A DNA stretch of 64,000 nucleotides from Siphonobacter curvatus. Lineage in GTDB: Bacteria; Bacteroidota; Bacteroidia; Cytophagales; Spirosomataceae. Below, piece after piece: positions 17,484 to 39,268 of this stretch. Each line of letters starts with the position of its first letter. Within the stretch, counting starts at the first letter, position 1. The position numbers were made by a program, and so were the translations under genes. The stretch spans positions 186,001 to 250,000 of the forward strand of contig NZ_PTRA01000003.1 in assembly GCF_002943425.1 (NCBI RefSeq). The letters run 5' to 3'. The notes beneath the pieces are model-generated. The model was not told the DNA's origin. It searched no databases and saw only the letters and a list, made by a program, of their open reading frames with translations.

Positions 17484-18824
17484 GTGAATTCAATAACGGA
17501 AGAACAAGTCGTTTCATTAGCTCCCGATGCTGCTTCGCTCAAAGCAGGCAAAGCCTTAGCCGTTGAGAATAAATGGCTGACGCTGGCATTCAACGACCGC
17601 GTCCTGTGGGGCGAGCTACAGGGGAGCGGCAAGGATCCCTACCGCACCCAGATAGACCTGGGGCAAATGGCCTCTAAATGCAGTTGCCCCAGCCGGAAAT
17701 TTCCCTGCAAACACGGCTTGGGCCTGTTGTTACTCTTTGCTAAATCCTCACCTGCCTTTCAGTCTCCGCCCGAAGAACCCGGTTGGGTAAGCGAGTGGAT
17801 GGATAAACGCCAGACGAAAGCCGAAAAAGCCGCTGAATCCGTGGTGGCCTCGCCCGCAACGGACGAGCAAAAAGAAAAGGATCGACAGAAACGGCAACAG
17901 GAACGCCTGCGAAAAGTACAGGGCGGCGTTACGGAGCTGGGCCAGTGGTTGCGGGATATGGTGCGAACGGGAACCCTAAACGTACCCGAACGCGGCTACC
18001 GGCATTTTGATCAGACCGCCGCCCGCATGGTCGATGCTCAGGCTACCGGACTGGCGAATGCCGTGAAAGCCTTCAATGCCATTCCGTACGCGGGCTCCGA
18101 CTGGCAGAGTCAGGTGTTGGAACAGTGTACCAAGCTGTTTGTCTGGACGGAGGCGTTCAAAAATCTGGATTCCTTGCCCATACCCGTACAGGAAGATATT
18201 AAAACGGCCCTCGGTTGGAGCCGCTCGGCCAAAGACTTGGATTCTGAAGGCGAAGTCGTCACCGATGACTGGCTGGTACTGGGTCGCCTGACGCGGGAAG
18301 AAGAGCGGATTACCGTGCAGCAAAACTGGCTCTGGGGTCACCAGACGAACCGCATCGCACTGGTACTGAATTTCGCGTATCAGAATGCGGGCATCGAAAC
18401 GCCCCTGGTACCGGGCACGAGTTCCCGGGCGGAGTTACGCTTCTTTCCCTCGGCTTTTCCTTTTCGGGCGATCGTTAGTAATCATTCCGGCTATTCCACT
18501 TTACATACACCACCGCTGGCATTTGCCAACTGGCTGGAGACAGAAGCGTTCCTGAACCAAATCTGGCTGATTCAACCCTGGGCTGATCAAATTCCGCTGT
18601 GGATAGAAAAGGTATCGTTGGTACGGGTAGGCGATCAATGGGTATTGCGGGATACTGAAAACCGGGTTGTACCGCTCTCGGATCAATTTTACGAAATGAA
18701 AATTTTCCATCTGCTGGCTCTCGGTGGCGGAAATCCCCTGACCTTATCGGTACGCTACAGCGACGGTACGGTCTATCCGCTCGGAATTTGGCTGGATGAT
18801 CAGTACCAACTCTTACCTTCTTAA
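17484..18824 (+). CDS. SWIM zinc-finger protein, first gene of the MoxR/VWA cassette
   Basis: 446 residues. Near the N-terminus the SWIM motif CxC-x6-CxH is complete: Cys66, Cys68, Cys75, His77 (KCSCPSRKFPCKHG). SWIM domains bind zinc and mediate protein or DNA contacts. A charged, coiled-coil-like segment follows (about 108-150, rich in Lys/Glu/Gln), then a long domain with no motif I recognise. It starts a five-gene run with very short spacers (5 bp to the next gene), so it should act with the downstream AAA+ ATPase and VWA protein. Confidence 0.85.
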   Translation: MNSITEEQVVSLAPDAASLKAGKALAVENKWLTLAFNDRVLWGELQGSGKDPYRTQIDLGQMASKCSCPSRKFPCKHGLGLLLLFAKSSPAFQSPPEEPGWVSEWMDKRQTKAEKAAESVVASPATDEQKEKDRQKRQQERLRKVQGGVTELGQWLRDMVRTGTLNVPERGYRHFDQTAARMVDAQATGLANAVKAFNAIPYAGSDWQSQVLEQCTKLFVWTEAFKNLDSLPIPVQEDIKTALGWSRSAKDLDSEGEVVTDDWLVLGRLTREEERITVQQNWLWGHQTNRIALVLNFAYQNAGIETPLVPGTSSRAELRFFPSAFPFRAIVSNHSGYSTLHTPPLAFANWLETEAFLNQIWLIQPWADQIPLWIEKVSLVRVGDQWVLRDTENRVVPLSDQFYEMKIFHLLALGGGNPLTLSVRYSDGTVYPLGIWLDDQYQLLPS

Positions 18825-18829
18825 GCCGC

Positions 18830-20335
18830 ATGAATACCTGGAATGAACTCGTACAAGTGGCGTTGCTGGGAACGGAGAAAGGCAGGTTTTCCCCCGAAAC
18901 CTTGCCCGAACCCCTTCAGCAGGCACTGGCTCAGGCCAATCCGCAGGACCGCGAAGGTTTTTTCTTACAGGCCGCCGCTCTTACCCATCAGTACGAGCGG
19001 GCGGGTCGCCGGGCTCCCGTACTGGAATCGCCGGGCGTACCCATTGCTGAAGCTGAAGAAAAGGCCGTTGCCTCAGCGGAGGCCGTTCGCATCCTTAAAA
19101 CCCTGCTGGATCAGCAGCCGCTGAATCCGGTGTTGTTGGGTTTATTATTACAAAAAATAGCTCAGAAGGACTGGATTGTGCCGCCCGCCTGGCTGGTATC
19201 GCTGCTGAATATCGGACTTGATTCCGTACAGGAAGCCCTGATTCCCGTGCAGGGCAAACGGGGCGAGTGGTTGCGGAATTTTTACGAACCCTGGAAAACC
19301 AAAGCTTCGCAGGCGAGCTGGGAGGAAGGCAAGATCAGTGAACGCAAGCAGGTATTAACGACCCTGCGAAAGCAAAACCCCACCGCCGCCCGCGAGCGAC
19401 TCGAACAAGCCTGGCCCGAACTCAACGCCCGCGAACGCAAGGATTTTCTGGACGTACTCTTTTTGGATTTGTCCCCCGCCGACGAGCCTTTTCTCCGGCA
19501 GGTGCAACAGGAACTCAAGGGCAATAAACCCATTCAGCAGGAAACCCGTCAACTGCTCATCCGTCTGCTGGCCACCTTACCCGATTCGCCCGAACGGCGG
19601 CTGGTGCAGCAGGAAATGCGGAAGTATGTCGTTCGCGAAAAAAAACTATTGGGACTAGTTTCTTCTGATCCCAAACTGGTACTGCCCGAAACCGAAGATG
19701 CGTTCTTTTCGATGGAACGCTTTCACCAGCACTGGGGCTTTGCGGCCCAACCTACGGATTCCTATCAGTACCAATCGCTAATCGAATACTGGTTTACCGA
19801 AGCCCTGGTACTGATCGATCCCAGGGTGTGGAAAGAAGAACTCAAAACGGACTGGCCCGGCGTAGTTACTTTTTTCACCGTAGAAAAAGCCAAAGCGGAC
19901 CGCTCGTACGCCCGCTACGTATCATTGATGGAGGCGTCCGTTCGTTTTCGCGTCCCTGAACTCTTTGGCATACTGGCGAAAGCACATATTCCGTATCCCG
20001 GCCTTACTTCCTTCACGATGGAAGAATGGGAGAAAATCTTTACCATCGTTTCGTTCCGGGAGCTGAGTATGCAACGCTCCGAATTACTGACCGCTCCCTG
20101 GTCGTCGAAATTGAGCAAACATATTTTGCGGGAATCGTTCGAGCTGGTCAGAAACTCGCACGTGTATCTGGAATTTGTTCGCCAGGCCAGTGCGTACTGG
20201 TACCCGCTGAGCGACGCGGAGATGGATGCCCTTCGGCCCTCGGATACGCCTTCGTATTACCAGTCGGGCGAAGAAAAACTCATCGTTCTACTGAAGGAAA
20301 TCCTTCAGCTTCGTCAACGCATCGAAGCCTTATAA
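18830..20335 (+). CDS. DUF5691 family protein
   Basis: 501 residues, rich in Leu, Glu, Gln and Arg, with a helical-repeat look (for example the run of KQNPTAARERLEQAWPELNARERKDFLD-type helices around 185-215). No catalytic motif is visible. I assign DUF5691 from its characteristic start (WNELVQVALLGTEKGRF) and its invariable setting beside SWIM, MoxR and VWA genes. It may be an adaptor or scaffold for the cassette. It is cytoplasmic: no signal or membrane segment. Confidence 0.75.
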   Translation: MNTWNELVQVALLGTEKGRFSPETLPEPLQQALAQANPQDREGFFLQAAALTHQYERAGRRAPVLESPGVPIAEAEEKAVASAEAVRILKTLLDQQPLNPVLLGLLLQKIAQKDWIVPPAWLVSLLNIGLDSVQEALIPVQGKRGEWLRNFYEPWKTKASQASWEEGKISERKQVLTTLRKQNPTAARERLEQAWPELNARERKDFLDVLFLDLSPADEPFLRQVQQELKGNKPIQQETRQLLIRLLATLPDSPERRLVQQEMRKYVVREKKLLGLVSSDPKLVLPETEDAFFSMERFHQHWGFAAQPTDSYQYQSLIEYWFTEALVLIDPRVWKEELKTDWPGVVTFFTVEKAKADRSYARYVSLMEASVRFRVPELFGILAKAHIPYPGLTSFTMEEWEKIFTIVSFRELSMQRSELLTAPWSSKLSKHILRESFELVRNSHVYLEFVRQASAYWYPLSDAEMDALRPSDTPSYYQSGEEKLIVLLKEILQLRQRIEAL

Positions 20336-20364
20336 CTGTTTTCTAACCTACTTTTCACGAAGAA

Positions 20365-21444
20365 ATGAACGCTTTACGCCAACACGCCGAAGAGCAATTT
20401 GCCGAAGAATTAGAAGAACTGCGGAAACAGGATAACGGTCAGCGGCCCCCCAACTGGGTCCTGACGCCGCAATCGGTCGTAACGTACCTGATGGGCGGTA
20501 CGCTGAAAAACGGATTCGAAGTAAGTCCCAAATACATTGGCAGTCGCCGCCTGATGGAAATCGCCGTCGCGACCCTGACCACGGACCGGGCTCTGCTGCT
20601 GTACGGTTTGCCAGGTACGGCTAAATCCTGGGTAGCTGAGCACCTGGCGGCTGCAGTATCGGGCAATTCTACGCTGCTCATCCAGGGAACCGCTGGTACG
20701 GGGGAAGAAGCGATTCGCTACGGCTGGAATTACGCCCGCCTGCTGGCCGAGGGACCTTCCCCGAATGCCCTCGTCGTAACGCCCATGATGCGGGCCATGC
20801 AGGACGGGAAAATTGCCCGGATCGAAGAATTAACGCGGATTGCCGCCGACGTACAGGACACACTGATTACCATTCTTTCGGAGAAAACCCTGCCCATTCC
20901 CGAGCTGAATTCGGAAGTACAGGCCACCAAAGGCTTCAACGTGATTGCCACGGCCAACAACCGTGATAAGGGCGTCAATGAATTATCGAGTGCCTTGAAG
21001 CGACGTTTCAATACGGTTATTCTGCCCGTACCCGAAAGTATGGATGAAGAAGTCAGCATTGTACAACGCCGGGTGAGTAGTCTTTCCAAAGCCTTGGAAT
21101 TACCGGCGGAGCTTCCCCACCTGACTGAAATTCAGCGACTGGTTACCATCTTCCGCGAATTACGCTCGGGGGCTACGCAGGACGGCAAAGCCAAGCTGAA
21201 AACGCCCTCGGGTACGATGAGTACCGCCGAAGCGATTTCCGTGATGAACAACGGAATGGCTCTGGCCGCTCACTTTGGCGATGGCCGGGTAACGGCGGAA
21301 GATCTGGCTGCGGGTCTGATCGGAGCCGTGGTGAAAGATCCGGTTCAAGATAAAGTAGTCTGGAATGAATACCTGGAAACGGTACTGAAGACCCGCGAAA
21401 ACTACCGCGATTTGTACCGGGCCTGCAAGGAACTGACGCTATGA
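20365..21444 (+). CDS. MoxR-type AAA+ ATPase
   Basis: 359 residues. Walker A GLPGTAKS at 81-88; the Walker B position reads ARIEEL (Glu154-Glu155), so the usual Asp is Glu. Sensor 1 is ATANNRD (195-201) and the arginine finger is in LKRRF (211-215). MoxR ATPases act as chaperone-like motors that work with a VWA partner, which is encoded two genes downstream. The stop overlaps the start of the next gene (ATGA), implying translational coupling. Confidence 0.88.
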   Translation: MNALRQHAEEQFAEELEELRKQDNGQRPPNWVLTPQSVVTYLMGGTLKNGFEVSPKYIGSRRLMEIAVATLTTDRALLLYGLPGTAKSWVAEHLAAAVSGNSTLLIQGTAGTGEEAIRYGWNYARLLAEGPSPNALVVTPMMRAMQDGKIARIEELTRIAADVQDTLITILSEKTLPIPELNSEVQATKGFNVIATANNRDKGVNELSSALKRRFNTVILPVPESMDEEVSIVQRRVSSLSKALELPAELPHLTEIQRLVTIFRELRSGATQDGKAKLKTPSGTMSTAEAISVMNNGMALAAHFGDGRVTAEDLAAGLIGAVVKDPVQDKVVWNEYLETVLKTRENYRDLYRACKELTL

Positions 21445-23666
21445 CGATTCATTTGTTGGGCATTCGCCACCACGGTGTAGGTTCGGCCCGGCGGGTGCAG
21501 CAGCGGCTCACGGAGATTCAGCCCGATTTGATTCTGGTGGAAGGGCCGCCCGAACTGACGGAGTTGCTGCACTGGACGGCTCACAAAGATTTACAGCCGC
21601 CCGTAGCCGTGCTCGCTTACGACGCCGATGAGCCGCAGAAAGCCGTATTTTACCCCTTTGTCGAGTACTCCCCCGAATGGGTGGCCGTGCAATACGCTCA
21701 TCGGCACGCGGTGCCCGTACGCATGACCGATATGCCTTTACTGCATTCGCTGGCGAAGGAGGAGGCACCCAAAATCGACTCCCTGCAAAAAGAGCAGGCT
21801 CCCGAACGGGAAATTTCGCCGCTGCATACGCTGGCTGAACTGGCGGGCTACGAAACCTATCACGACTGGTGGGAGGAACGCTTCGAACAGGACCCCCGCA
21901 TCGGGGATTCGGCGGCTTATTTCGAGGCGGTACAGCTAACCATGGAAACGGCTCGGGCCGCTTCGGCCCATCCGACGCCGCAGCAGGATGCGATCCGGGA
22001 AGCCTTCATGCGGCAACATATTCGTGAAGCTCAAAAAGAGGGATTTGCCAACATCGCCGTGGTCTGCGGAGCCTGGCACGTGCCGGCTTTGACCGATCTG
22101 AAAACGACCAAAAAGGAGGATACGCCGCTCGTCAAAGGCTTACCCAAAGCTAAAGTACGCCTGACCTGGATTCCCTGGACGAACACCCGCATGAGCTGGT
22201 GGAGTGGGTACGGGGCCGGGATTCACTCGCCGGGCTGGTACGAGCACCGCTGGTATCAACCCGAAGACCGGGGCGAACAATGGCTCACCCGCGTAGCCCG
22301 GCTCTTTCGTCGCCAGAAGATGGACGTGTCCACGGCTCATATTATCGAAGCTTTCCGACTGGCGGATTCACTGGCGACTTTGCGGAATCTCCCGCGTCCA
22401 GGTCTGAACGAATTGAATGAAGCTACGCAATCGGTGATGTGCATGGGCGACGGCATTCTGATGCGACTGGTAGAAAAGGAGTTGATCGTAGCTCACCGCA
22501 TGGGACAGGTGCCCGACGAACTACCAAAATTGCCTATTCAGACCGATTTTGAAACGATTGCCAAGAAGTTACGCCTTGAAATTCGGGAAGAGACCAAGTT
22601 TCTGGAGCTGGACCTTCGCAAAGACCTCGATCTTTCCCGGAGTATCTTTCTGCATCGCCTGCGGGTGTTGGAGGTGCCCTGGGGCAGTCTGACGGGTAGT
22701 TCCGGGAAAGGGACGTTTAAGGAAGGCTGGCAACTGCGATGGAGTCCGGAGGCGATTCTTCAGCTCATTGAAAAAGCCATTTGGGGGAACCGGATTGAAG
22801 ACGCGGCCACGCAGTATCTGCTCGACCAGACCCAACGGAGTACCTCCATTACCGAACTGGCTCAAAAACTGGAAGCAGCCATTCCGGCGGAATTGTTTGG
22901 CGTACTCGACGGCCTGATTCATAAGATCAGTGAACTGGCGACGGTGTCGGCGGATATGCAGGAACTGATGATGGCCCTGCAACCGCTGGTCACGGTGAGT
23001 CGGTACGGAAGCGTTCGGAAAACGGACTTATCCACCCTCATGCAGGTCGTGGAAGGGCTATTGACGCGAATCTGCATTGGCCTGCCTACGGCCTGTTACG
23101 GACTGGATGACGAAAACGCCCGCCGGATGCTCGGACTCATTCGTCAGGTGGATGAATCCGTACGTCTGCTCGAACGCGAATCGCTGGTGCAGGCCTGGCG
23201 GGATACCTTATGGATGCTGGCAACGAAAGAACATCTGCCCGCTCTCATTACCGGCGGAAGTACGCGATTGCTCTTTGACAGTAAAGTACTGGAAGAGGAA
23301 CAGATGACGCAGCGGTTTGAACGAGCCTTGTCGAAAGGCAACGAACCAAGCGATTCGGCGGCCTGGCTGGAGGGCTTTTTAAGCGGCAGTGGGCTGATTC
23401 TGCTCTACGATCCGGCTCTCTGGAAATTGCTGTATACCTGGGTGGCTGAGCTGGCAGGGGAAACCTTCATGGAGTTACTGCCCGTCCTGCGTCGGACCTT
23501 TGCGACCTTCGAAGTAGCCGAACGCCGCCAGCTGGGTGAAAAAGCTAAACAACCGCCCGTAACGCTGGAAACGGCCGTGCAGACGAGTTGGGCCGAAGGC
23601 GAATTCGATTGGGAACGAGCGGAAGCCAGTTTATCACCGATGAAAGCATTACTGGGACTGAATTAA
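21441..23666 (+). CDS. DUF5682 protein with TraB/TIKI-like GxxH motifs
   Basis: 741 residues, cytoplasmic. The N-terminal 215 residues show two GxxH motifs, GIRH (7-10, followed by HGVGSAR) and GAWH (210-213), an acidic LVEGPPE (Glu34) and an RMTDMP segment (Arg94). This pattern is that of the TIKI/TraB/erythromycin-esterase/ChaN superfamily of putative hydrolases; the comparison is mine from motif spacing and needs a profile search. The remaining 500 residues are helical with no recognised motif. It sits between the MoxR and VWA genes and is probably the effector or substrate-processing part. Confidence 0.75.
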   Translation: MTIHLLGIRHHGVGSARRVQQRLTEIQPDLILVEGPPELTELLHWTAHKDLQPPVAVLAYDADEPQKAVFYPFVEYSPEWVAVQYAHRHAVPVRMTDMPLLHSLAKEEAPKIDSLQKEQAPEREISPLHTLAELAGYETYHDWWEERFEQDPRIGDSAAYFEAVQLTMETARAASAHPTPQQDAIREAFMRQHIREAQKEGFANIAVVCGAWHVPALTDLKTTKKEDTPLVKGLPKAKVRLTWIPWTNTRMSWWSGYGAGIHSPGWYEHRWYQPEDRGEQWLTRVARLFRRQKMDVSTAHIIEAFRLADSLATLRNLPRPGLNELNEATQSVMCMGDGILMRLVEKELIVAHRMGQVPDELPKLPIQTDFETIAKKLRLEIREETKFLELDLRKDLDLSRSIFLHRLRVLEVPWGSLTGSSGKGTFKEGWQLRWSPEAILQLIEKAIWGNRIEDAATQYLLDQTQRSTSITELAQKLEAAIPAELFGVLDGLIHKISELATVSADMQELMMALQPLVTVSRYGSVRKTDLSTLMQVVEGLLTRICIGLPTACYGLDDENARRMLGLIRQVDESVRLLERESLVQAWRDTLWMLATKEHLPALITGGSTRLLFDSKVLEEEQMTQRFERALSKGNEPSDSAAWLEGFLSGSGLILLYDPALWKLLYTWVAELAGETFMELLPVLRRTFATFEVAERRQLGEKAKQPPVTLETAVQTSWAEGEFDWERAEASLSPMKALLGLN

Positions 23667-23672
23667 GCACAC

Positions 23673-24851
23673 ATGGCGATACACGAAGAAACGCTCAAGC
23701 GCTGGCGATTGCTGCTGGGAGGCGATCAGGCCGATGGCACAGGCGTGGCTCTCGACCCTACGGAAGCCCAGATTGACAAGGCTTTGTCGGCCCTGTACGA
23801 CTTTGAAATACGCGGCAAATTTGAGTACAGCCCCGAACGGGCGGGTGGGTCGGGCGCTTCGCAACCGAACGTAGCCCGATGGCTGGGCGATATTCGCACG
23901 TACTTTCCGGCGTCGGTGGTACAGGTGATGCAGCAGGACGCCCTGCAAAAGCCGGAATTACAAAAGAAATTACTTTTTGAACCGGAGATTTTAGAACAAG
24001 CTACGCCCGATGTACATCTGGTGGCTACGCTGATGGAACTGGGTAAGCTGATTCCTTCAAAAACCCGCGATACGGCCCGGCGGGTCGTGCAAAAAGTAGT
24101 GGATGAGTTACTGGAAAAACTGGCTCAAAATACCATTCAGTCGATTACTGGGGCTCTAAATCGGGGCGTTCGGAACCGTCGTCCGCGGTTGAGTGAAATG
24201 GACTGGCCCAGTACCATCCGCAAAAACTTGAAGTATTACCAGCCAACCTATCAGACGATCATTCCCGAAGAACTGGTTGGCTTTGGGCGAAAAACGCGGC
24301 GTTCACTAAAAGACGTGGTGCTGTGCCTGGATCAGTCGGGTTCGATGGGGAGTTCTGTCGTCTATTCCGGAATTTTCGGCTCAGTCATGGCATCCATTCC
24401 GGCCATCAAAACGCAAATGATCGTATTTGATACCGAAGTGGTCGATCTGACGGAAGACCTACGCGACCCGGTTGATTTGCTCTTTGGTGTACAACTCGGG
24501 GGCGGTACGGACATTAACCGGGCCTTGGGCTATTGTCAACAGGTCATCCAGAAACCCAACGATACGATTCTGGTTCTGATTACGGATTTATACGAAGGCG
24601 GAAATCTGGCTCAGATGCGGCTACGCGTGCAGGAAATCGTAGCTTCGGGCGTTCAGCTGATTTGCCTGCTGGCTTTGAATGACGAGGGAGCCCCGTATTA
24701 CGATCACGGAAATGCCAAGTTTTTAGGGGATCTGGGCATTCCCGTTTTTGCCTGTACGCCCGATATGTTCCCAGAAGTCATGGCCGCAGCCATTAATAAG
24801 CAGGATTTGAAACAGTGGGCGGGTGATCGGGAAATTGCCCTGAAAGGCTAA
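23673..24851 (+). CDS. VWA domain protein, partner of the MoxR ATPase
   Basis: 392 residues. The C-terminal von Willebrand A domain has a complete MIDAS: Asp220-x-Ser222-x-Ser224 (CLDQSGSMG), the GGGTDINRAL threonine and LITDLYEGG. The N-terminal 200 residues are helical. Such CoxE-like VWA proteins bind metal-dependent clients and cooperate with MoxR ATPases. It is the last gene of the tightly packed cassette, 6 bp after DUF5682. Confidence 0.88.
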   Translation: MAIHEETLKRWRLLLGGDQADGTGVALDPTEAQIDKALSALYDFEIRGKFEYSPERAGGSGASQPNVARWLGDIRTYFPASVVQVMQQDALQKPELQKKLLFEPEILEQATPDVHLVATLMELGKLIPSKTRDTARRVVQKVVDELLEKLAQNTIQSITGALNRGVRNRRPRLSEMDWPSTIRKNLKYYQPTYQTIIPEELVGFGRKTRRSLKDVVLCLDQSGSMGSSVVYSGIFGSVMASIPAIKTQMIVFDTEVVDLTEDLRDPVDLLFGVQLGGGTDINRALGYCQQVIQKPNDTILVLITDLYEGGNLAQMRLRVQEIVASGVQLICLLALNDEGAPYYDHGNAKFLGDLGIPVFACTPDMFPEVMAAAINKQDLKQWAGDREIALKG

Positions 24852-24887: not shown

Positions 24888-25733
24888 GTGCAACTGATTG
24901 CAGATAGTGGATCAACGAAAACCGACTGGCGTATGCTGGCCGCCGATGGAAGCGTGTCGCAGGCCCGTACGGTGGGATTCAATCCCTTTTACCAGACCTC
25001 GGAAGAGATTTCTAAAGAACTGTCGCTGAGTCTGAAACCAAAAGTGACGGAACCCATTACGGAAATTTTCTTTTACGGAGCGGGCGTGAGCGGGCCGGAA
25101 AAGGCGGCAATCATCCAGGCGGGGCTATCGGCGGTGTTTCCCGAAGCTACGCACATCGAAGCTCATTCCGATATGCTGGGAGCGGCCCGGGCCCTATGCG
25201 GACGTGACGCAGGCATTGCGTGTATTTTGGGAACGGGTTCGAATACCTGTCAGGTCGCTAACGGAGATATTCAATACAAAGTCGATACGCTGGGTTTCTG
25301 GCTGGGCGATGAAGGGAGTGGGGGATATCTGGGCAAAACCCTGGTTCAGGCGTATCTGCACCGCGAATTACCGGAAGAACTGAAGCTAAAATTCGAGAAG
25401 CGGTATCCCACCGTCAATCGGGATACGGTACTGGAAAATGCGTATCAGAAACCTTTTCCGAATCGCTATTTCGCGGGTTTCTCCAAATTTCTGTTCGATA
25501 ATCGTACGCATCCCTTTGCCTATCAACTGGCCGCTGATGCCTTTCGACTGTTCTTCGACAAATACATTCTCAAATACCCCGACTATGCGAGTTACCGCGT
25601 GCATTTGACCGGATCGGTAGCGTTTTATTACTCCGACATTATTCGAAGAATAGCCCGGGAAAAGGGCGTAACCATCGGTGTGATTATGGAAACACCCATT
25701 GCGGGACTGACGCTCTACCATCAACCCGAGTAA
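24888..25733 (+). CDS. BadF/BadG/BcrA-type ATPase, probable N-acetylglucosamine kinase
   Basis: 281 residues starting with GTG at 24888 (MQLIADSGSTKTDWRML). It has the ASKHA phosphate loop DSGSTKTDW, a second phosphate motif LGTGSNTC, and GDEGSGGYLGK. Bacteroidota members of this family are GlcNAc-kinase-like sugar kinases used in amino-sugar recycling. It is 36 bp after the VWA gene and may share the transcript, but its function looks unrelated. A terminator follows. Confidence 0.8.
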   Translation: MQLIADSGSTKTDWRMLAADGSVSQARTVGFNPFYQTSEEISKELSLSLKPKVTEPITEIFFYGAGVSGPEKAAIIQAGLSAVFPEATHIEAHSDMLGAARALCGRDAGIACILGTGSNTCQVANGDIQYKVDTLGFWLGDEGSGGYLGKTLVQAYLHRELPEELKLKFEKRYPTVNRDTVLENAYQKPFPNRYFAGFSKFLFDNRTHPFAYQLAADAFRLFFDKYILKYPDYASYRVHLTGSVAFYYSDIIRRIAREKGVTIGVIMETPIAGLTLYHQPE

Positions 25734-25767
25734 TAAAAAAAGGCTGGTTCAACCAGCCTTTTTTTAT
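25734..25767. terminator. Bidirectional terminator
   Basis: A7-GGCTGG-TTCAA-CCAGCC-T7 between the convergent kinase and Rrf2 genes. Confidence 0.9.
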
Positions 25768-26225
25768 TACTCGATATTCGTTTGGGGTGTTTCGAGATTC
25801 ACGGCCGCTTTGTTCTCCAGTAAGTCGGCAATCGTCGTTTGCTCGAGTACGTGAAGGTTGGCGTCCCGCCAGTCCCGCATGACATTCCGTAAGGTACAGG
25901 TATGCTCATCGGCACAGTCGTCGCACTTTCCGTAGAAATACAGCGAAACGCAAAGCGTGGGTGAAATCGGACCGTCGATAATTCGCAGTACTTTGGCAAA
26001 GTTTACTTCGGCTGGTGGAATTCGTAACATGTAACCACCACCTTTCCCTTTCTGGCTTTGCAGAATGCCGTGATTCCGCAAATCGAGCAAAATGGCTTCC
26101 AGGAATTTCTTGGGGATTTTCTCCTGCTCGGCAATATAGGAAATCAGTACTGGTTTTTGGTTCCCAAACTCCTGACCCAACACTTTCAGGGCTTTGAGAG
26201 CATATTTGGCTTTTTTTGAAATCAT
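25767..26225 (-). CDS. Rrf2-family transcriptional regulator
   Basis: 152 residues. Winged-helix N-terminus of the Rrf2/IscR type (MISKKAKYALKALKVL; QKGKGGGYML wing). Cysteines at 92, 101, 104 and 110 (CVSLYFYGKCDDCADEHTC) could hold an Fe-S cluster, as in IscR/NsrR, though spacing differs from both. It probably senses iron-sulphur status, nitric oxide or redox stress. Targets are unknown. The upstream 400 bp towards rpmH is AT-rich and holds its promoter. Confidence 0.85.
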   Translation of the reverse strand: MISKKAKYALKALKVLGQEFGNQKPVLISYIAEQEKIPKKFLEAILLDLRNHGILQSQKGKGGGYMLRIPPAEVNFAKVLRIIDGPISPTLCVSLYFYGKCDDCADEHTCTLRNVMRDWRDANLHVLEQTTIADLLENKAAVNLETPQTNIE

Positions 26226-31260: not shown

Positions 31261-32712
31261 TTAAAAGTCTTCGGCTTCGGTTCCGGCCAGCGGAAATGAA
31301 ATCGTAAAGGCCGTACCTACACCCACCTCTGATTCGACATCAATACGGGCTTTATGGGACTGGACAATACTCAGCGTAGCGGCCAGACCCAGTCCGATTC
31401 CATTGTTTTTAGACGTAAAATAAGGTTCAAACAAACGACCCAAATTCTCCGCTGGAATGCCTGATCCGTTGTCTTCAATGGTTACGTAACAGAAGTCACC
31501 GGCTACGTGGTTTTGCACGTGAAGAATACCTATTTCAGGTTCCATGGCTTCAATGGCATTGACAATGATATTGAGAATCGCAATTTTGATTTTCTCCTTG
31601 TCAACCTTTACGAAGCAATCTTCGCCGTAATCTTTCTGTAGCGTAATGTTTTTTAATTGAACCCGGTCCATCGCCAGGGCTAGCGTCTCGTCGAGAATCT
31701 GGTGGATTGAGAAATCGGCCAGATTGATTTCTGCCTGCCGGGAGGAATTCAGAAGTTCCGAAATCAAATCATTAATCCGCTGAGAGTTGCGTTTGATGAT
31801 TTGAGGATACATCAGCAAGGTATCGTCTTCCATGCCCGTGAGCAGTTCGTCCGCCGATAAATTGATGTTGGTGAGCGGATTACGTACTTCGTGAGCCAGC
31901 GTGCGTACGAGGCGGGCTGTAGCCGCCAGTTTCTCCGTAAGCAAGGTGTCTCGTTCGGCCTTCTTTCGAGCCGTAATATCGTGGACAATTCCCTGAATCT
32001 GCCGCACCCCAAAGCCATCACTCTGTACACTGGCGTATATCGTACAGTATCGTTTTTCTCCCTGACTAGTCAGTAAGGCCACCTCAAAGTCTTCGATTTC
32101 GCCGAATTGATCGAGTATGGAAGAAAAAATAGCGTAGCGTTCCGTGCTTTCGAAAAGTTCGGGCATCCGCTTTTGGGTAAAATCTTCCGGAGTATAGCCC
32201 AGTAATTCGCTACCGTTTGGATTGACGTATAAGAATTCACCCGAAGGACTCGCCAGAAAAATCATTTCCCGCAATTGATTGAACAAACTCCGGTACCGGC
32301 GTTCGCTCTCGCGCAGGGTGTTAAGCGTAGCCGCCCGCTCAAGTGCGTAGCGAATACAGCGTTCGAGTTTTTCGGCGTTCAAATCCCGTTTCACCAGGTA
32401 ATCCACAGCTCCCCGTTTCGTGGCTTCTTCATCCACTTTACGGTCTCCACGACCCGTCAGTAGTACCATGGGTGTAGACAACCCAATGGCGTGCACTTCT
32501 TCGATAAGGTCAAGGCCCGTTTTGGCTCCGAGAAAGAAATCTACGAAAGCAATTTGGGGATTACTGGTCTTGAGTTTTTCCAGGGCACTGGAATAGCTAT
32601 TGGCCCACTCTAACGCAAACTGACTGCCTGGGATGTCTCGCAGGTAGTCACTCGTGAGCAGGTAATCGTCCTCATCGTCATCCACGATTAAGACTTTCGT
32701 CACATTATTCAT
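31261..32712 (-). CDS. Receiver-PAS-histidine kinase hybrid
   Basis: 483 residues from ATG 32712 (MNNVTKVLIVDDDEDDYLL). Domains in order: an N-terminal receiver (about 1-120, phosphoacceptor in IAFVDFFLGAKTG), a PAS domain (about 140-260, with RRYRSLFNQLREMIFL) and HisKA with His274 (LAHEVRNPL). A HATPase domain follows (N box NAIEAM, G boxes DNGSGIP and GIGLGLAATL). With no membrane segment it should be cytosolic and receive phosphate from another kinase. Last gene of the minus-strand signalling run behind rpoN. Confidence 0.9.
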   Translation of the reverse strand: MNNVTKVLIVDDDEDDYLLTSDYLRDIPGSQFALEWANSYSSALEKLKTSNPQIAFVDFFLGAKTGLDLIEEVHAIGLSTPMVLLTGRGDRKVDEEATKRGAVDYLVKRDLNAEKLERCIRYALERAATLNTLRESERRYRSLFNQLREMIFLASPSGEFLYVNPNGSELLGYTPEDFTQKRMPELFESTERYAIFSSILDQFGEIEDFEVALLTSQGEKRYCTIYASVQSDGFGVRQIQGIVHDITARKKAERDTLLTEKLAATARLVRTLAHEVRNPLTNINLSADELLTGMEDDTLLMYPQIIKRNSQRINDLISELLNSSRQAEINLADFSIHQILDETLALAMDRVQLKNITLQKDYGEDCFVKVDKEKIKIAILNIIVNAIEAMEPEIGILHVQNHVAGDFCYVTIEDNGSGIPAENLGRLFEPYFTSKNNGIGLGLAATLSIVQSHKARIDVESEVGVGTAFTISFPLAGTEAEDF

Positions 32713-32763
32713 AATTTCTCCCTGCTCGCCAGAGAGCATTTAAAGGTGAAACGAAGGTATAGG

Positions 32764-33222
32764 TTATTTCGAAGGCGAAGGTAATAGAACCGTTTCAAAC
32801 CAATACCGCCCAATAGACTGGGCAACTTCGATAAAATCCTTAGCACTTATCGGTTTAGAGATGAAACAATTCACGCCCAAATTATAACTCTTGAAAATAT
32901 CTTCCTCTGCGTGCGAAGTCGTCAAAACAATAACCGGAATGCTTCGTAATTCTGGATGCGACTTGATGTGCTGTAAGGCCTGACGACCATCCATACGAGG
33001 CATATTCAAATCCAGTAAAATTAAGCCAGGTCGTGGACTGCGTTCGGGATCGACGTAGATTCCTTGACGAAACAGATAGTCGATCAAGGCCAGACCATCC
33101 GTTACCATCTGTATTTGGCTAAAAACGAAATTTCCTTCGAAAGCCTCCCGAGTCATTTCCCGGTCCTCTTCATCATCGTCGGCAATGAGTAGCACGACCG
33201 GTTTTTTGAGATTGTGTTTCAT
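32764..33222 (-). CDS. Stand-alone response regulator (Rcp1-like)
   Basis: 152 residues from ATG 33222 (five more residues if the ATG at 33237 is used). A receiver only: acidic pocket ADDDEEDREM, phosphoacceptor in PGLILLDLNMPRMDGR, conserved Thr in VIVLTTS and Lys in CFISKPIS. Such single-domain regulators, with a long beta4-alpha4 region, pair with PAS kinases carrying an SHDLQEPLRK H-box, like the one encoded 50 bp upstream. No output domain. Confidence 0.9.
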   Translation of the reverse strand: MKHNLKKPVVLLIADDDEEDREMTREAFEGNFVFSQIQMVTDGLALIDYLFRQGIYVDPERSPRPGLILLDLNMPRMDGRQALQHIKSHPELRSIPVIVLTTSHAEEDIFKSYNLGVNCFISKPISAKDFIEVAQSIGRYWFETVLLPSPSK

Positions 33223-33274
33223 GACGCTCCTAAACAAGTGGGCGGGAGGGATAAGGGTACGCTACATTCCTACC

Positions 33275-34432
33275 TCATTTAACGGATGCTTTCTGTTGTT
33301 GAGGAAAGATCAGTACGAACGAAGCACCCTGACCCGGTTCACTTTGAGCGTAAATGATTCCACCGTGATTTTCAACAATCCGTTTACAGATGGCCAATCC
33401 CATACCCGCTCCTTCGTATTCAGAACGGCCATGTAATCGTTTAAATAAAGTAAAAATCTGTTCCGACTGTCCGGGTTCAAAACCAATACCGTTATCGCTA
33501 ACCGTGATTTTATGGTATATGGTGCCCGGTACGAAGCGGTGCTCTGCTATCTCCTGACGGTTGAGTAGACTTGACAAGATCCTTAAGCGAGGCTTCCGAT
33601 CAGGACTAGTGAACTTCAGGGCGTTACTCAGTAAATTCTGAAACAACTGGTGCATTTGAGTGGGCAGGGAAGAAAGGGTCGGTAGTGGACCTACTTCGAC
33701 TTCTGCTTCCGTTTCCGTTAACCGTAATTCAAAATCACTGAGTACGTTCTTGACAACCTCATTTAGGTTGACGGGGGTAAACGGCTCCTCTGGACGCGAA
33801 ATTCTGGAGTAACCAAGCAGACTTTCAATGAGCAATTTCATTCGCTGCGTAGCTCCGAGCATTCGGGAAAGATAGTGTTTGCCTTCTTCTCCCAGATTTT
33901 CCTGATAACGGCTCGTCAGTCGTTCGCCGAAAGAAGTAATCTTGCGAAGTGGTTCCTGTAAGTCGTGTGAAGCAATATAGGCAAACTGCTCGAGTTCAAA
34001 ATTGGATCGATCCAGCGCGTCCATTTTCGACTTGAGCTCCTGCTCAAAGAGGTAATGAGCAGTGAGATCAGCCGTGATGCCTACCAAACGTACATCTGGT
34101 GTTTCAGGGCTCACAAGCACATTCCCCCGACTCATGAGTACGAGTTCATGGCCCGTATAGTCTAGAATGCGATATTGTACCTGAAAGGGGAGCTGGTGTT
34201 CAATGGCTTCTTGAATCGAGGTGACCACTTTCTCGCGATCTACTTCCAGAATCTGCTCATAAAACCAGTGTGCGGTAGGGGGCGTACGAACCTCAGACGG
34301 AAAGCTCAATACGCGGAATAAACCCTCCGACCAGTAAAATTCTTCCGTAGTAGTCGACCAATCGAAGGTACCAAATCGTAATAAAGATTCAGCTTCCCGA
34401 AGGTAGGCAGTACTATCATAAAGCTGAGACAT
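33275..34432 (-). CDS. PAS-domain sensor histidine kinase
   Basis: 385 residues, no membrane helix. PAS_3-type domain (about 10-130, RFGTFDWSTTTEEFYWSEGLFRVL), then a linker. HisKA with His156 (FAYIASHDLQEPLRKITSF) and a HATPase with N box (NLLSNALKF), DNGIGFEPG and GAGMGLAICKRIVENHGG follow. It probably senses an intracellular ligand or redox state. The adjacent receiver is its likely partner. Confidence 0.9.
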   Translation of the reverse strand: MSQLYDSTAYLREAESLLRFGTFDWSTTTEEFYWSEGLFRVLSFPSEVRTPPTAHWFYEQILEVDREKVVTSIQEAIEHQLPFQVQYRILDYTGHELVLMSRGNVLVSPETPDVRLVGITADLTAHYLFEQELKSKMDALDRSNFELEQFAYIASHDLQEPLRKITSFGERLTSRYQENLGEEGKHYLSRMLGATQRMKLLIESLLGYSRISRPEEPFTPVNLNEVVKNVLSDFELRLTETEAEVEVGPLPTLSSLPTQMHQLFQNLLSNALKFTSPDRKPRLRILSSLLNRQEIAEHRFVPGTIYHKITVSDNGIGFEPGQSEQIFTLFKRLHGRSEYEGAGMGLAICKRIVENHGGIIYAQSEPGQGASFVLIFPQQQKASVK

Positions 34433-34460
34433 ACTGATAAGCTAAAAAGAAGCGACATTC

Positions 34461-34505
34461 GTGAAAAGGGCATACGCCTGCCTAAACAGGAGCATGCCCT
34501 TTTCA
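34461..34505 (-). terminator. Hairpin after the NtrC-type gene
   Basis: GTGAAAAGGGCAT (34461-34473) and ATGCCCTTTTCAC (34493-34505) pair perfectly, and an inner CCTG/CAGG stem closes the loop. It sits directly after the stop codon. The T run is short (4), so termination may be partial. Confidence 0.55.
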
Positions 34506-34506
34506 C

Positions 34507-35994
34507 TTACGACAAGTGGTAATTTTTCATTTTGTTGTAAAGCGTTTTACGGTCAATGCCTAGCAATTGAGCAGCTTTACTTTTATTAAAATTGACCTGT
34601 TTAAGGGTCTTGAGAATCATATCGTACTCAGCCTCGAGTGCAGCCGAACGCAAATTGGGTTTTTCACCCTTAGGTACATCCGGAGCCACCAGGCTAACGG
34701 GTGGTTCACTGTAGTAGGTTTGTGGAGGAATAACCGGAATTTCCGGTACGTATACGGGCGTTACGGGTGGCGTATTGGTCTCCATGGATTGCAACTTGTT
34801 AAAGTGTACAATCTCAAAAGGAAGGTCTCTGGACTGGATAGCCTCGCTATCGGTAAGTAACGTAGCGCGTTTGATGACGTTACGCATTTCCCGAAGGTTA
34901 CCCGGCCATTCGTAACGCATGAACAAATCTACGACATCATCGGCAAAGCCGCGTACTTGCTTGCCCAGCTCGCCATTGGTGGCTTGCAGAAAGTAATCGG
35001 CAAATACCAGGATATCGGCATTACGTTCGCGAAGCGGTGGTACATCGATGCTGAATTCGTTAAAGCGATAGTAAAGGTCTTCTCGGAATTTTCCTTTTTT
35101 AGCGGATTCAATCAGACGTTCGTTCGAGGCGACAATGATGCGTACATCGATAGGCGTTTCTTTCGTACCGCCTAGTCGGCGTAGTTTCCGTTCCTGTACC
35201 ACCCGCAAAAGCGAAACTTGCACATCATAAGGTAAGTTACTCACTTCATCCAAGAAAAGAGTACCCCCGTGGGCTTGTTCAAAGTGACCAATTTTTTGGT
35301 TGAGGGCTCCGGTAAAAGCACCTTTTTCGTGCCCAAATAGCTCTGAACCCGCCAAGTCCTTGGAAATCGCTCCGCAATCCATGGCTACGAAAGGTCCGCT
35401 GGAGCGTTTACTACGTTTGTGAATTTCCTGAGCAACGGCTTCTTTGCCCGAGCCACTTTCGCCATAGATAATGACGCTATAGTTGGTTGGCGCTACCAGA
35501 TCTACCTGACGATACAGGTATTTAGATTCTGGGCCATTGCCAAAAATATACTGTTCTGATCCGGTGGGACGTTTCGGAGCAGGCGTTGAAGATCCGGCTT
35601 CTCCGTTCACACTAGGTGCGGAGGGCTGAGCCGTACTTTGATCGAGTGCCTTCCGAATGGTCACTAAAATCTCATCCGGGAACAGAGGCTTCGTTACGTA
35701 GTCATACGCCCCCTGTTTCATCACGTTTACAGCGATTTTAATATCTGAATAACCCGTGATGACAATGACAGGTACGTGCGGAAACTGTTCCTTAATGCGA
35801 ACGAGTAATTCGCCTCCGTCCATGTCTCCCAGACGGAAGTCCGTCATGACTAAGTCGGGCTTGAAATCAGTAAGGATTTCAAGACCTGAAGTTCCATTAT
35901 GAGCAATGGCGACCTCGAAGCCGTTACGCCCCAAGAATCGCCGTAGAAGCAGACAAATGTCCGTATCGTCGTCAATTACTAATATTTTCTGCAT
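34507..35994 (-). CDS. Sigma-54-dependent response regulator (NtrC family)
   Basis: 495 residues. N-terminal receiver (about 1-120; VIDDDTD, phosphoacceptor in LVMTDFRLGDMDG). A Pro/Ser linker leads to an AAA+ domain with Walker A GESGSGKE, the sigma-54-contacting loop EKGAFTGA, Walker B GGTLFLDEV and sensor/arginine finger segments. A C-terminal Fis-type helix-turn-helix (NKSKAAQLLGIDRKTLYNKMKNYHL) completes it. All parts needed to activate sigma-54 promoters are intact. It is encoded 92 bp downstream of rpoN on the same strand. Confidence 0.95.
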   Translation of the reverse strand: MQKILVIDDDTDICLLLRRFLGRNGFEVAIAHNGTSGLEILTDFKPDLVMTDFRLGDMDGGELLVRIKEQFPHVPVIVITGYSDIKIAVNVMKQGAYDYVTKPLFPDEILVTIRKALDQSTAQPSAPSVNGEAGSSTPAPKRPTGSEQYIFGNGPESKYLYRQVDLVAPTNYSVIIYGESGSGKEAVAQEIHKRSKRSSGPFVAMDCGAISKDLAGSELFGHEKGAFTGALNQKIGHFEQAHGGTLFLDEVSNLPYDVQVSLLRVVQERKLRRLGGTKETPIDVRIIVASNERLIESAKKGKFREDLYYRFNEFSIDVPPLRERNADILVFADYFLQATNGELGKQVRGFADDVVDLFMRYEWPGNLREMRNVIKRATLLTDSEAIQSRDLPFEIVHFNKLQSMETNTPPVTPVYVPEIPVIPPQTYYSEPPVSLVAPDVPKGEKPNLRSAALEAEYDMILKTLKQVNFNKSKAAQLLGIDRKTLYNKMKNYHLS

Positions 35995-36086
35995 AGAAAA
36001 TCTACCATTACCCTCACTTGAACTAGAGCCTTATGGGTGTGAAATGCTCTTTTATTAACAACAAACGATTAGTATCTGCTTAACGA

Positions 36087-37559
36087 TTAGATGCCCCGTC
36101 GGAATTGAGCGGACTGAATGCCCAGTTGATCGCGATATTTAGCGACCGTCCGACGTGAGATTTTATAGCCTTGCGTAGCCAGTAATCGCATCAGATCGAA
36201 GTCGTTGAATGGATTACGTTTGTCTTCGCAGGAAATATGCTCTACGAGTGCTTGCTGAATGGCTTTGTTTGAAACTTCGTGACCGTCTTCCGTTCGAATG
36301 CCTTCCGTAAATAAATCTTTCAGGTGAATCAGACCAAAAGGCGTTTGTACGTATTTACCCGACGTTACCCGTGAAATGGTAGAAATATCCATACCAATTC
36401 GATCTGCTACATCTTTGAGAATCATGGGTTTCAGGTTCCGCACATCACCCGTTTCGAAATAAGGCCGCTGTAACTCAACCAGCATTCGCATGGCTCGATG
36501 CATCGTATTTTCCCGTTGACGAATCGCGTCAACCAGCCATTGAGCCGATTGTAGCTTATTTTTCAGGTAAGTGGCGGCTCCGCGTTCACGACTGGTATCG
36601 ACTAAACCGATAATCGAGCTATTTACCCGAATATCAGGCCAATTGCCGCGGTTGAGGGCTACTTCAATCCGTCCATAGTCGTCGTAATGTAAAACATAGT
36701 CAGGGATAATACCACGTTTCACGACTATTGAATCGTTATTCCCACCGACGATGGGTTTGGGATTGAGTTTACCAATTTCGGCAACTGCCATTCGTAACTC
36801 GTCCTGATCAATACTCAAATGCTTACAGATCTTTTCAAAGTTACGATTGGAAAGTTCAGTAAAGCATTCGCTGACAATATCCATGGCTCGCAGCGTTGCT
36901 GCAGTAGCCCGGCGGCTTTCTAGCTGAAGAAGCAGACATTCGCGTAAATCACGAGCTGCCAAACCGGCTGGTTCAAGCTCGTCATGAATGGCTGTGAGTA
37001 CTTCTTCGACTTCTGAACCATCTACAAAAATTCCATGCCCGAACGAATAATCATCGGCTAACGCATCCGCATCGCTACGCAAGAAGCCATCATCGTCGAG
37101 GGAATCAATAATAAATTCGGCCAGAGCCCGCTGACGATCTTTCAGATTCATCCAGCGAATTTGTTCTTTAATTACTTCCCGCCAGGTTTCCTGTTCAACG
37201 ATGGGTGACGAATACAGATCGTCTTCCGCATTGGGATCCTGGCTCAGCCGCGTTTTATATTCGGGAATATCATCGTTCGAAAATTCGTCCCAATCCCTAT
37301 AGTCCTCAACGTTCGTCGGTGTTTCGTAATCGACCGTATGATCGTCCCGTTCGTCCGAGGAAAGTTCCATTTCGGCCTCATCGCTGGACTCCTTTTCGGC
37401 GGCACCTTCTTCTAGCAGCGGGTTTTCCTCTAATTCGTTGCGAAGGTGTTGCTCAAGCTCCAGCGTAGAAAGTTGTAAAAAATTTAAAAACTGTATCTGC
37501 TGAGGAGCTACCCGTAGGGTTTGTTTCTGAGTTTGAGAGAGGTTGACAGAAGTGCTCAT
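36087..37559 (-). CDS. rpoN: RNA polymerase sigma-54 factor
   Basis: 490 residues. Region I (1-55; LSQTQKQTLRVAPQQIQFLNFLQLSTLELEQHL) starts with the usual Gln/Leu-rich activator-response sequence. An acidic region II (about 55-130) follows, then core-binding and DNA-binding domains. The RpoN box is near 470 (KISRRTVAKYRDQLGI; the canonical ARRTVAKYRE is nearly kept). It directs transcription from -24/-12 promoters that need the NtrC-type activator encoded next. Confidence 0.96.
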   Translation of the reverse strand: MSTSVNLSQTQKQTLRVAPQQIQFLNFLQLSTLELEQHLRNELEENPLLEEGAAEKESSDEAEMELSSDERDDHTVDYETPTNVEDYRDWDEFSNDDIPEYKTRLSQDPNAEDDLYSSPIVEQETWREVIKEQIRWMNLKDRQRALAEFIIDSLDDDGFLRSDADALADDYSFGHGIFVDGSEVEEVLTAIHDELEPAGLAARDLRECLLLQLESRRATAATLRAMDIVSECFTELSNRNFEKICKHLSIDQDELRMAVAEIGKLNPKPIVGGNNDSIVVKRGIIPDYVLHYDDYGRIEVALNRGNWPDIRVNSSIIGLVDTSRERGAATYLKNKLQSAQWLVDAIRQRENTMHRAMRMLVELQRPYFETGDVRNLKPMILKDVADRIGMDISTISRVTSGKYVQTPFGLIHLKDLFTEGIRTEDGHEVSNKAIQQALVEHISCEDKRNPFNDFDLMRLLATQGYKISRRTVAKYRDQLGIQSAQFRRGI

Positions 37560-37846
37560 ATGTGGTTTGGATCGTTTAAGGCGGTAACTGAAGTACTATA
37601 CCTATTCATAAAGTCAAGCCACACGAGACCTATTCAGCCAAATCCTGCATCTTCGAACCGGATTTTAAGTACCTAGCACATTTTTTTTGTTGATAATCAA
37701 GCCGTTTTTGTACGAATGGGACCGACGAGTTTATTTTTTTACTTGACCTTTCTCTTTTCTTTTGGCGGAAAGCTACCTTTTTTTGCCTCCTCTTATTTCC
37801 CCAAACTGTAGAAATATAACCACTCGTCTGGTTTTCGATTTAGTAA

Positions 37847-39268
37847 ATGAAGTCTTCGAACGTCTGGCTACTCAATATTGCTGCTGCTTCTGCCATTGCC
37901 ATACTGGTACTGCTGACCTACCTGTGTTTAGATCAGGTACGATCTACGGAATGGTTTAGTGAACGGGTAGAGCATACGTATAAAACCATTAACGAAAGTG
38001 AACGGCTGTTTTCGCAGGTTAAGGAAGCGGAAGCAGGGATTCGGGGCTATCTACTTACCTCGAATGAATTATTCATCAAATCGTATAAACAGGGGCGTAC
38101 CGAGTACGAAGCTTCCGCTCAACGTCTGCAATTCCTGCTCAATGATAATGCCCATCAGTTACGGCGGCTGGCTGTATTTAAAAGTCTGGCTCGTGATAAG
38201 TGGGAAAGTATGGATCTGCAATTGAAAGGGATAGATAAAATCCAGAATCAGGATTCTATGATTCTCAAGAGCAAGGCCATCATGGATGCCATGCAAAAGC
38301 AGATCAATGAAATTCAGGACGAAGAACGTAAGCTGTTGACAAGCCGTTTAAAGGCTCGTGAACGCGAATTCAATTTGGCTCCTACGTACTTATTAACGTT
38401 GGCACTGCTGGCAGGGGGGCTGTTGATTATTTCGGCGACGCTACTCAACATCGAACTTCGACGGCGGCGTTTGATCCAGATTGATCTGGAGAAAAAAGTC
38501 GAAGCCCTCAACCGCTCGAATGCTGAGCTCGAACAATTTGCGTACGTAGCTTCGCACGATTTACAGGAACCGTTACGAAAAATTAGAGCTTTTGCGGATC
38601 GGTTGTTGATGCGACAACGCGATCAGCTCACCGAAGATGGTCAGACCATGCTGGACAAAATCGCGAATGCCGCCGAACGCATGCAGAGCCTCATTAACGA
38701 TCTGTTGACTTTCTCGCGAATGGTAAGTCGTACGGACCCATTGCAAATGGTTAATTTGAATGAAGTACTCGACGAGGTTCAACTGGATCTTTCAGAGGTA
38801 ATTACTGAACAGCAAGCTTCCGTTCATGTACAGGCTTTACCCACCATTCAAGGTTATCCTTCGCAGGTACGGCAACTTTTGCTGAACCTGCTCAGTAACG
38901 CCCTTAAATTTACTAAGCCCGATGTGCTTCCAATGGTTGAAGTCACGTATCGAAAAGTAGATGGATCTGAAATACCAACCCTAGATTCGGACCTGAAAAA
39001 AGAACAATGGTATCACTGCATACGCATCAGCGACAATGGCATCGGGTTTGAACCCGAGTATGCTGAGAAAATTTTTGTAATTTTTCAGCGGTTACACGCC
39101 AAATCGGCTTATGGGGGCACGGGGATTGGATTAGCCATTTGTCGACGGGTGGTGACCAATCACGAAGGTTATATCTTTGCGGAAGGCAAACCGGGGCAGG
39201 GGGCTCTCTTTACGATCTACCTGCCCATTGAAACCACCCAACAGAATCTGACGGGTACGACAGAATAA
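37847..39268 (+). CDS. CHASE3-domain sensor histidine kinase
   Basis: 473 residues. TM1 (about 7-27), an extracytoplasmic CHASE3 domain (about 30-170; EAEAGIRGYLLTSNELF is diagnostic) and TM2 (about 178-200). HisKA with His237 (ASHDLQEPLRKIRAF) and a HATPase (NLLSNALKF, DNGIGFEP, GTGIGLAICRRVV) follow. H-box and ATPase are closely similar to the 33275-34432 kinase, so these are paralogues. It pairs with the receiver 66 bp downstream and is divergent from rpoN. The 287-bp divergent spacer is T-rich. Confidence 0.92.
   Translation: MKSSNVWLLNIAAASAIAILVLLTYLCLDQVRSTEWFSERVEHTYKTINESERLFSQVKEAEAGIRGYLLTSNELFIKSYKQGRTEYEASAQRLQFLLNDNAHQLRRLAVFKSLARDKWESMDLQLKGIDKIQNQDSMILKSKAIMDAMQKQINEIQDEERKLLTSRLKAREREFNLAPTYLLTLALLAGGLLIISATLLNIELRRRRLIQIDLEKKVEALNRSNAELEQFAYVASHDLQEPLRKIRAFADRLLMRQRDQLTEDGQTMLDKIANAAERMQSLINDLLTFSRMVSRTDPLQMVNLNEVLDEVQLDLSEVITEQQASVHVQALPTIQGYPSQVRQLLLNLLSNALKFTKPDVLPMVEVTYRKVDGSEIPTLDSDLKKEQWYHCIRISDNGIGFEPEYAEKIFVIFQRLHAKSAYGGTGIGLAICRRVVTNHEGYIFAEGKPGQGALFTIYLPIETTQQNLTGTTE

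Follow-up and report, generated by a model that had tools for sequence, protein, structure and literature searches.

What is the function of the five tightly packed genes at positions 17484-24851 of the window (the whole stretch of 64,000 nucleotides of Siphonobacter curvatus DNA that was analysed, coming from a genome of 6.4 Mb in 19 contigs), and how would their products work together? The cassette consists of five + strand open reading frames (ORFs), with gaps of 5, 29, -4 and 6 bp, and a first-pass annotation, made from the DNA letters, had given exactly these coordinates and spacers, which are reproduced here. Its family assignments are also retained, as the Pfam matches of all five cassette proteins exceed the curated family cut-offs.

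17484..18824, + strand: SWIM zinc-finger protein, 446 aa, GTG start (Pfam SWIM 1.3e-6)
18830..20335, + strand: DUF5691 protein, 501 aa (Pfam DUF5691 6.1e-57)
20365..21444, + strand: MoxR-type AAA+ ATPase, YehL subfamily, 359 aa (Pfam AAA_5 1.6e-35)
21441..23666, + strand: DUF5682 protein (YehM family), 741 aa (Pfam DUF5682 4.2e-247)
23673..24851, + strand: VWA protein, CoxE type (YehP family), 392 aa (Pfam VWA_CoxE 1.4e-46)

It is proposed here, with moderate confidence, that the cassette encodes one AAA+ remodelling machine, in which SWIM and DUF5691 would form the adaptor and DUF5682 would act as a hydrolase with a TIKI/TraB fold.

Conservation, dispersal and fusion of the five genes

A scan of the genomes of 84,980 species finds 585 relatives of DUF5682, the best 80 of which were retained, and this sample is therefore skewed toward the cassette type of the window itself. 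All five modules are present in identical order and on one strand at 62 of these 80 loci (58 with space on both sides and four near contig ends), and because this order and strand recur so often, the cassette is not a chance arrangement. DUF5682 stands without partners on the examined stretch at eight loci, four of them with space, and the remaining 10 loci are partial, nine of these being cut by contig ends. No alternative gene order is observed among these best 80 of the 585 relatives. Outside this sample the gene order is variable, because, among the more distant plasmid matches, those of E. coli and Agrobacterium have MoxR-DUF5682-(DUF4132)-VWA-SWIM orders. One member of the genus (G004) lacks the cassette.

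The tree of DUF5682 has 79 rows and 13 phylum labels, and these labels need 18 changes, the minimum being 12 and the shuffled mean being 41.1. When compared with the shuffled value, this number suggests that the cassette has been passed on mainly by inheritance inside phyla, with some exchange being possible. The pairwise distance matrices among the five proteins correlate at 0.54-0.82, and the median identities are 0.72 (MoxR), 0.62 (VWA), 0.45 (DUF5682), 0.37 (SWIM) and 0.25 (DUF5691). The cassette has a higher G+C content than its flanks, but the same holds for 55 of 56 relatives (mean +0.038). The G+C content at third codon positions, 0.58-0.64, is inside the range of the adjacent genes, and base composition is therefore rejected as evidence for horizontal transfer.

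Several variants of the locus are also observed. A small hypothetical gene lies between MoxR and DUF5682 on a Hymenobacter plasmid (L107, 8368-8979) and on a Deinococcus plasmid (L156, 8768-9004). DUF5682 is in two frames at one locus (L017, genome G051), and at another (L011, genome G001) DUF5691 and a BadF-like gene are split and MoxR is shortened; these are either true breaks or assembly errors. An unannotated contig of 14 kb from a fecal source, which is classified as phage (L110, MT835988.1), carries a DUF5682 relative of 30% identity and may be bacterial DNA.

The association of the five genes is preserved when the genes are dispersed. Of the 296 genomes sampled from the phylum, among them that of the window, seven carry DUF5682, and DUF5691 is found in the same seven and in G072, where it is below the family cut-off (Fisher p 2e-13). 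In G218, one of the seven, DUF5691 also scores below the cut-off, yet the gene adjoins MoxR and DUF5682. The dispersed set consists of 10 genomes in which at least one partner is missing near DUF5682 (G032, G037, G095, G234 and the genomes of loci L024, L036, L040, L047, L075 and L082), and nine relatives without DUF5682 are the controls. VWA and DUF5691 are each present in 10/10 dispersed genomes and in 0/9 controls, and SWIM in 9/10 and 1/9, respectively, the control match being 27 residues long. MoxR is present in all 10 dispersed genomes with a best E of <=2e-145 (split across contigs in one metagenome-assembled genome, MAG), whereas eight of the nine controls have weak matches only (best 7e-11), as expected for other MoxR proteins. 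The five genes lie on five contigs in G037 and on four contigs in G095, where no pair is closer than 180 kb; some gene pairs are still close in G032 and G234, and groups of two or three genes persist in some MAGs. The homologues thus co-occur even without adjacency, instead of being isolated genes.

The genome of L024 (G350) seemingly has two sets, one clustered and one dispersed. On its contig C16, the SWIM, DUF5691, MoxR and VWA genes are clustered, with a 2.3-kb gap whose size would fit a candidate DUF5682 gene.

Fusions connect the same proteins. SWIM and DUF5691 are encoded by a single ORF at three of the 80 loci (L049, L077 and L083), as confirmed with Pfam for L049, and a DUF5691 protein of 1009 aa on a Hymenobacter plasmid, for which Pfam gave no SWIM half at 0.01, is probably also such a fusion. 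Since the two are one polypeptide in some lineages, DUF5691 is the probable partner of the SWIM protein. In Streptomyces atratus, DUF5682 and VWA are one protein of 1255 aa. Because the five proteins co-occur even when their genes are not adjacent, and because some lineages have pairwise fusions of them, they are considered to act together, as the first-pass annotation had supposed. A five-protein set that extends across 13 phylum labels and is co-retained in the genome after dispersal is almost certainly one machine.

A related gene run occurs in E. coli K-12, where yehL (MoxR), yehM, yehP (VWA) and yehQ (SWIM) are consecutive. The identity is 39% over 354 aa between the window MoxR and YehL, 35% over 369 aa between the window VWA and YehP, and ~25-28% over the full length between the window DUF5682 and YehM, which has a Pfam DUF5682 match of 2.4e-98. 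As judged from these alignments, the window cassette corresponds to E. coli yehL-yehM-yehP-yehQ in an extended form. The E. coli locus is near-core, being covered for at least 80% in 5162 of 5426 E. coli genomes. Literature searches found no functional study of yehLMPQ in the accessible texts, which mention these genes as entries of lists and screens: in the portions available, yehM is among the mutated genes of copper-evolved E. coli in one study (PMC12409786), a study on butanol includes both deletion and expression of yehQ (PMC6442406), and yehP appears on an array (PMC3589462). On the E. coli plasmid NZ_CP103756.1 (L108), a yehI-yehLMPQ-yehR-yehS-btsRS-mlrA block is flanked by two IS26 copies; this plasmid is conjugative, and resistance genes adjoin the block.

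A further partner is seen at some loci. A homologous family of ~1000 aa is present at nine of the 80 loci, and the two of the nine that were tested with Pfam are both DUF4132, to which E. coli YehI also belongs. The Agrobacterium operon itself includes a gene for a WGR-DUF4132 protein, and a DUF4132-type gene also lies beside E. coli yehL. These genes, together with the response of the Deinococcus DUF4132 and WGR genes to DdrO depletion, as given in the available portion of one paper (PMC8533742), would agree with a system that monitors or repairs damaged nucleic acid or nucleoprotein, where SWIM (and, at loci that have it, WGR-DUF4132) would bind the nucleic acid, the motor would clear the site and DUF5682 would remove the adduct or the protein. 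This function is considered improbable, as DUF4132 has no match in the genome of the window, SWIM may bind protein rather than nucleic acid, and no LexA-type box is found in 32 kb around yehLMPQ with a simple consensus. With the latter search, SOS control is also rejected.

Proposed motor, zinc motif and likely fold of DUF5682

The window MoxR has the Walker A and Walker B motifs and the paired arginines, and these motifs are conserved in 10 of 10 aligned rows. The YehP-type VWA gene lies two genes downstream of the MoxR gene, and the metal ion-dependent adhesion site (MIDAS) of its product is intact (DxSxS at 220-224, T279 and D305). In the SWIM protein, the residues C66, C68, C75 and H77 (CxC...CxH) are all invariant in 31 aligned relatives; we take these four residues to be the zinc ligands. 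The match of the window MoxR with RavA covers only 31 residues (E 0.043), and by sequence this protein is nearer to YehL than to RavA and belongs to the YehL subfamily, which is one of the seven subfamilies into which MoxR proteins are divided in the accessible part of PMC3893208.

The VWA protein falls in the Pfam family VWA_CoxE, and by analogy with CoxD-CoxE the cassette might therefore be a maturation factor of a metalloenzyme, such as a molybdoenzyme. The genome of the window has the MoaA C-terminal domain, the E. coli DUF4132/WGR genes beside yehL bear the old name molR (PMC8533742 and PMC4245954), and the mutation of yehM in copper-evolved E. coli is a weak hint in the same direction. 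The MoaA C-terminal domain is present in 15 of 20 cassette genomes, being absent in G051, G218, G081, Bacteroides cellulosilyticus and Butyricimonas synergistica, and since these five lack it, the cassette is not generally accompanied by molybdenum cofactor synthesis. The metal cofactor role suggested by the first-pass annotation, examined for molybdenum only, is thus not general, and we regard it as having a low probability.

The AlphaFold2 model of DUF5682, built on 34 aligned relatives, has a mean predicted local distance difference test score (pLDDT) of 89.6 and consists of an alpha/beta domain of ~260 residues, the remainder (about two thirds) being mostly helical. When the N-terminal 310 residues are modelled alone, the pLDDT is 89.6 and the predicted template modelling score is 0.88. 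In a Foldseek comparison with the viral model library (BFVD), the sole match of this N-terminal domain below 0.001 is to a protein of the TraB family (E 6.2e-6, prob 1.00). None of the residues H10, H11, E34, D97, R186, E187 and H213 varies in any of the 34 relatives, YehM retains the conserved putative active-site residues, and the residue order is common to three families: H10/H11-E34 of DUF5682 corresponds to H48-E74 of TraB and H36-E64 of EreA, and the second cluster, R186-E187/H213, to R248-N249/H273 of TraB and R247-D248/H276 of EreA. The pattern H, E, R-[DEN]xx[hydrophobic], H is present in 34/34 DUF5682, 23/23 TraB and 8/8 EreA rows. From the fold match and the shared residues, the N-terminal domain of DUF5682 likely has a TIKI/TraB-type fold, and DUF5682 may then be a hydrolase, in agreement with the hydrolase-like pattern noted earlier for this protein.

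DUF5682 might instead be a scaffold and not an enzyme; the machine would then act purely as a chaperone in the assembly or disassembly of one protein complex, in the manner of RavA-ViaA or NorQ-NorD. The MoxR-VWA pairs of known role serve the maturation of complexes, according to the available part of PMC3893208, and the large helical part of DUF5682 is of the same tenor; the best PDB matches of the whole model are helical-repeat proteins, none being significant. The seven invariant residues, which follow the TraB/EreA pattern, would be needless for a mere scaffold, and this possibility is considered rather unlikely.

Several observations weigh against the proposal of a hydrolase-bearing machine. 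A Foldseek search of the PDB gives no match with E<0.001 for DUF5682, whole or N-terminal; the top match of the N-terminal domain is a chain of the Tetrahymena complex IV (2.9e-3), and the EreA-type chains 3b55 and 2rad match at E >2 only. The superpositions are poor in both libraries (template modelling score ~0.3). Pfam gives DUF5682 no TraB assignment, and hhalign found no link of DUF5682 to TraB or EreA, a profile-profile comparison that is powerless, because the positive control of TraB versus EreA was also negative. The pattern of H, E, R-acid and H was composed after the alignments were inspected, and by chance it also fits nine of 82 rows from the alignments of the remaining four proteins (3/31 for SWIM and 6/30 for DUF5691). 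The genome of L047, a MAG, is a dispersed genome without a detectable SWIM gene. In E. coli, the match of the window SWIM protein to YehQ is local, covering 85 residues around the zinc motif (E 2e-4), and DUF5691 is not detected at the yehLMPQ locus; a search of the E. coli control genome with the DUF5691 family also gives no match. A sequence search of the PDB finds nothing at or below 0.001 for DUF5682, DUF5691 and SWIM, and likewise nothing at 0.001 for VWA.

In the proposed mechanism, the five proteins would assemble into a single YehL-type machine, cytosolic and driven by ATP. The MoxR AAA+ ring (20365-21444) and the MIDAS-bearing VWA cofactor (23673-24851) would be the remodelling motor, and SWIM and DUF5691 would be the adaptor that delivers the target. 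DUF5682 (21441-23666) would provide the chemistry by means of its N-terminal TIKI/TraB/EreA-type fold with the putative active-site residues, and its helical remainder may dock to VWA, the fusion partner of DUF5682 in Streptomyces. The motor would then open or move the target and hand it over to the hydrolase, by which it would be cut or modified. The first-pass annotation had likewise supposed that SWIM would recognise a target, MoxR-VWA would remodel it and DUF5682 would act on it. It is a tentative extension of this proposal that such machines, in which a MoxR/MIDAS motor feeds a TIKI/TraB-fold enzyme and SWIM-DUF5691 is the substrate adaptor, may constitute a new class of AAA+-driven hydrolase that is widespread in bacteria and, in the form of yehLMPQ, near-core in E. 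coli. Literature searches of the accessible texts found no paper naming DUF5682 or DUF5691 and none combining YehL with MoxR and SWIM; the papers found for SWIM, MoxR and VWA (PMC10910872 and PMC4858521) concern, in the portions available, other matters.

The surroundings of the cassette

Downstream of the VWA gene, the following features are present.

24888..25733, + strand: BadF/NagK-like ATPase gene (family matches below the curated cut-off), outside the five conserved modules
25727..25773, + strand: terminator-like hairpin (stem of 20 pairs) where the BadF-like and Rrf2-type regulator genes converge
25767-26225, - strand: Rrf2-type regulator gene, convergent with the BadF-like gene

The BadF/NagK-like gene starts 36 bp past the VWA gene on the same strand, and it is found downstream of VWA in five of five genus loci examined, being split into two frames in one of them (L011). 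Because of this short distance and the hairpin at the end of the gene, a six-gene transcript including the BadF-like gene may exist. One such hairpin is weak evidence, because 20 terminator-like sites are found in the region and 12.2 are expected. The Bacteroidota-type promoter consensus has one match in the window, distant from the cassette (1.65 expected), and no structured RNA reaches the gathering score in the window. At 31261-39268 of the window, a sigma-54 factor gene (36087-37559), a sigma-54-type response regulator gene (34507-35994) and sensor kinase genes (31261, 33275 and 37847) adjoin each other.

The neighbours at other loci bear on a role in defence, as had been considered in the first-pass annotation. 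The cassette would in this case be an anti-phage or conflict system related to the MoxR-vWA ternary systems, and this agrees with its patchy distribution (8/59 relatives and 7/296 phylum genomes), with some plasmid copies being near transposases or a toxin-antitoxin pair, and with a Pfam match of the window MoxR to bpMoxR, the MoxR of the ternary systems. This match, at 23.2 bits, is under the 27-bit cut-off, so that by Pfam the window MoxR is not of the ternary type, and no effector or adaptor domain of the ternary systems is found by Pfam among the five proteins. The five proteins have no weighty PADLOC match (best 6e-5), no relative is found in IMG/VR, and yehLMPQ is near-core in E. coli. 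Among 148 of 204 neighbour proteins there are few PADLOC matches at 1e-10 (raw counts, with no background rate), and the two commonest PADLOC families, of three members each, apparently derive from three Chitinophaga loci of shared synteny. The defence role is thus not supported and is very unlikely. The commonest neighbour family is that of the AraC-type regulators, with HTH_18 in seven of 148 proteins around 41 loci, several being from the same loci. The window SWIM protein (17484-18824) has a weak PADLOC match to DpdE (4.5e-4, residues 22-150), which is probably due to the shared zinc motif.

Comparison with known systems

The solved structures that are nearest to the window MoxR by sequence are those of midasins (Rea1/MDN1; 1.5e-26). 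Midasin combines the AAA+ ring and the MIDAS domain in one giant polypeptide, which acts on pre-ribosomes, and we know of no counterpart of SWIM, DUF5691 or DUF5682 in that system. The likeness of the N-terminal domain of DUF5682 to the TIKI/TraB/EreA enzymes consists of the TraB fold match and the pattern of H, E, R-acid and H, whereas the long helical extension and the absence of a family match at the sequence level set DUF5682 apart. To our knowledge, no other TIKI/TraB/EreA member works with an AAA+ motor, as is proposed here for DUF5682.

MoxR-VWA pairs are described as chaperone-like or conflict modules in the accessible parts of PMC3893208 and PMC8195603, as had also been stated in the first-pass annotation. 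RavA-ViaA of E. coli likewise consists of a MoxR ATPase and a VWA cofactor, a chaperone-like role being proposed in the available text of PMC3893208, but RavA is of another MoxR subfamily, and SWIM, DUF5691 and DUF5682 genes are absent from the stretch examined. The MoxR-vWA ternary conflict systems (VMAP, iSTAND and TERNS3) have MoxR, vWA and a further component; when searched with Pfam, this third component and the effector domains are not found among the five window proteins, and a word search of PMC7159879, on these systems, gives no SWIM, DUF5682, DUF5691 or YehL.

The E. coli yehLMPQ locus shares with the window MoxR, DUF5682, VWA and SWIM in one gene run, having orthologous MoxR and VWA proteins and a full-length DUF5682 protein. 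It differs in that SWIM is last, DUF5691 is not detected at the locus, YehQ is weakly similar to the window SWIM protein and the DUF4132 gene yehI lies upstream. The predicted fold of DUF5682, its candidate active-site residues and the existence of a relative in a laboratory strain of E. coli make an enzyme that can be tested out of an uncharacterised operon.

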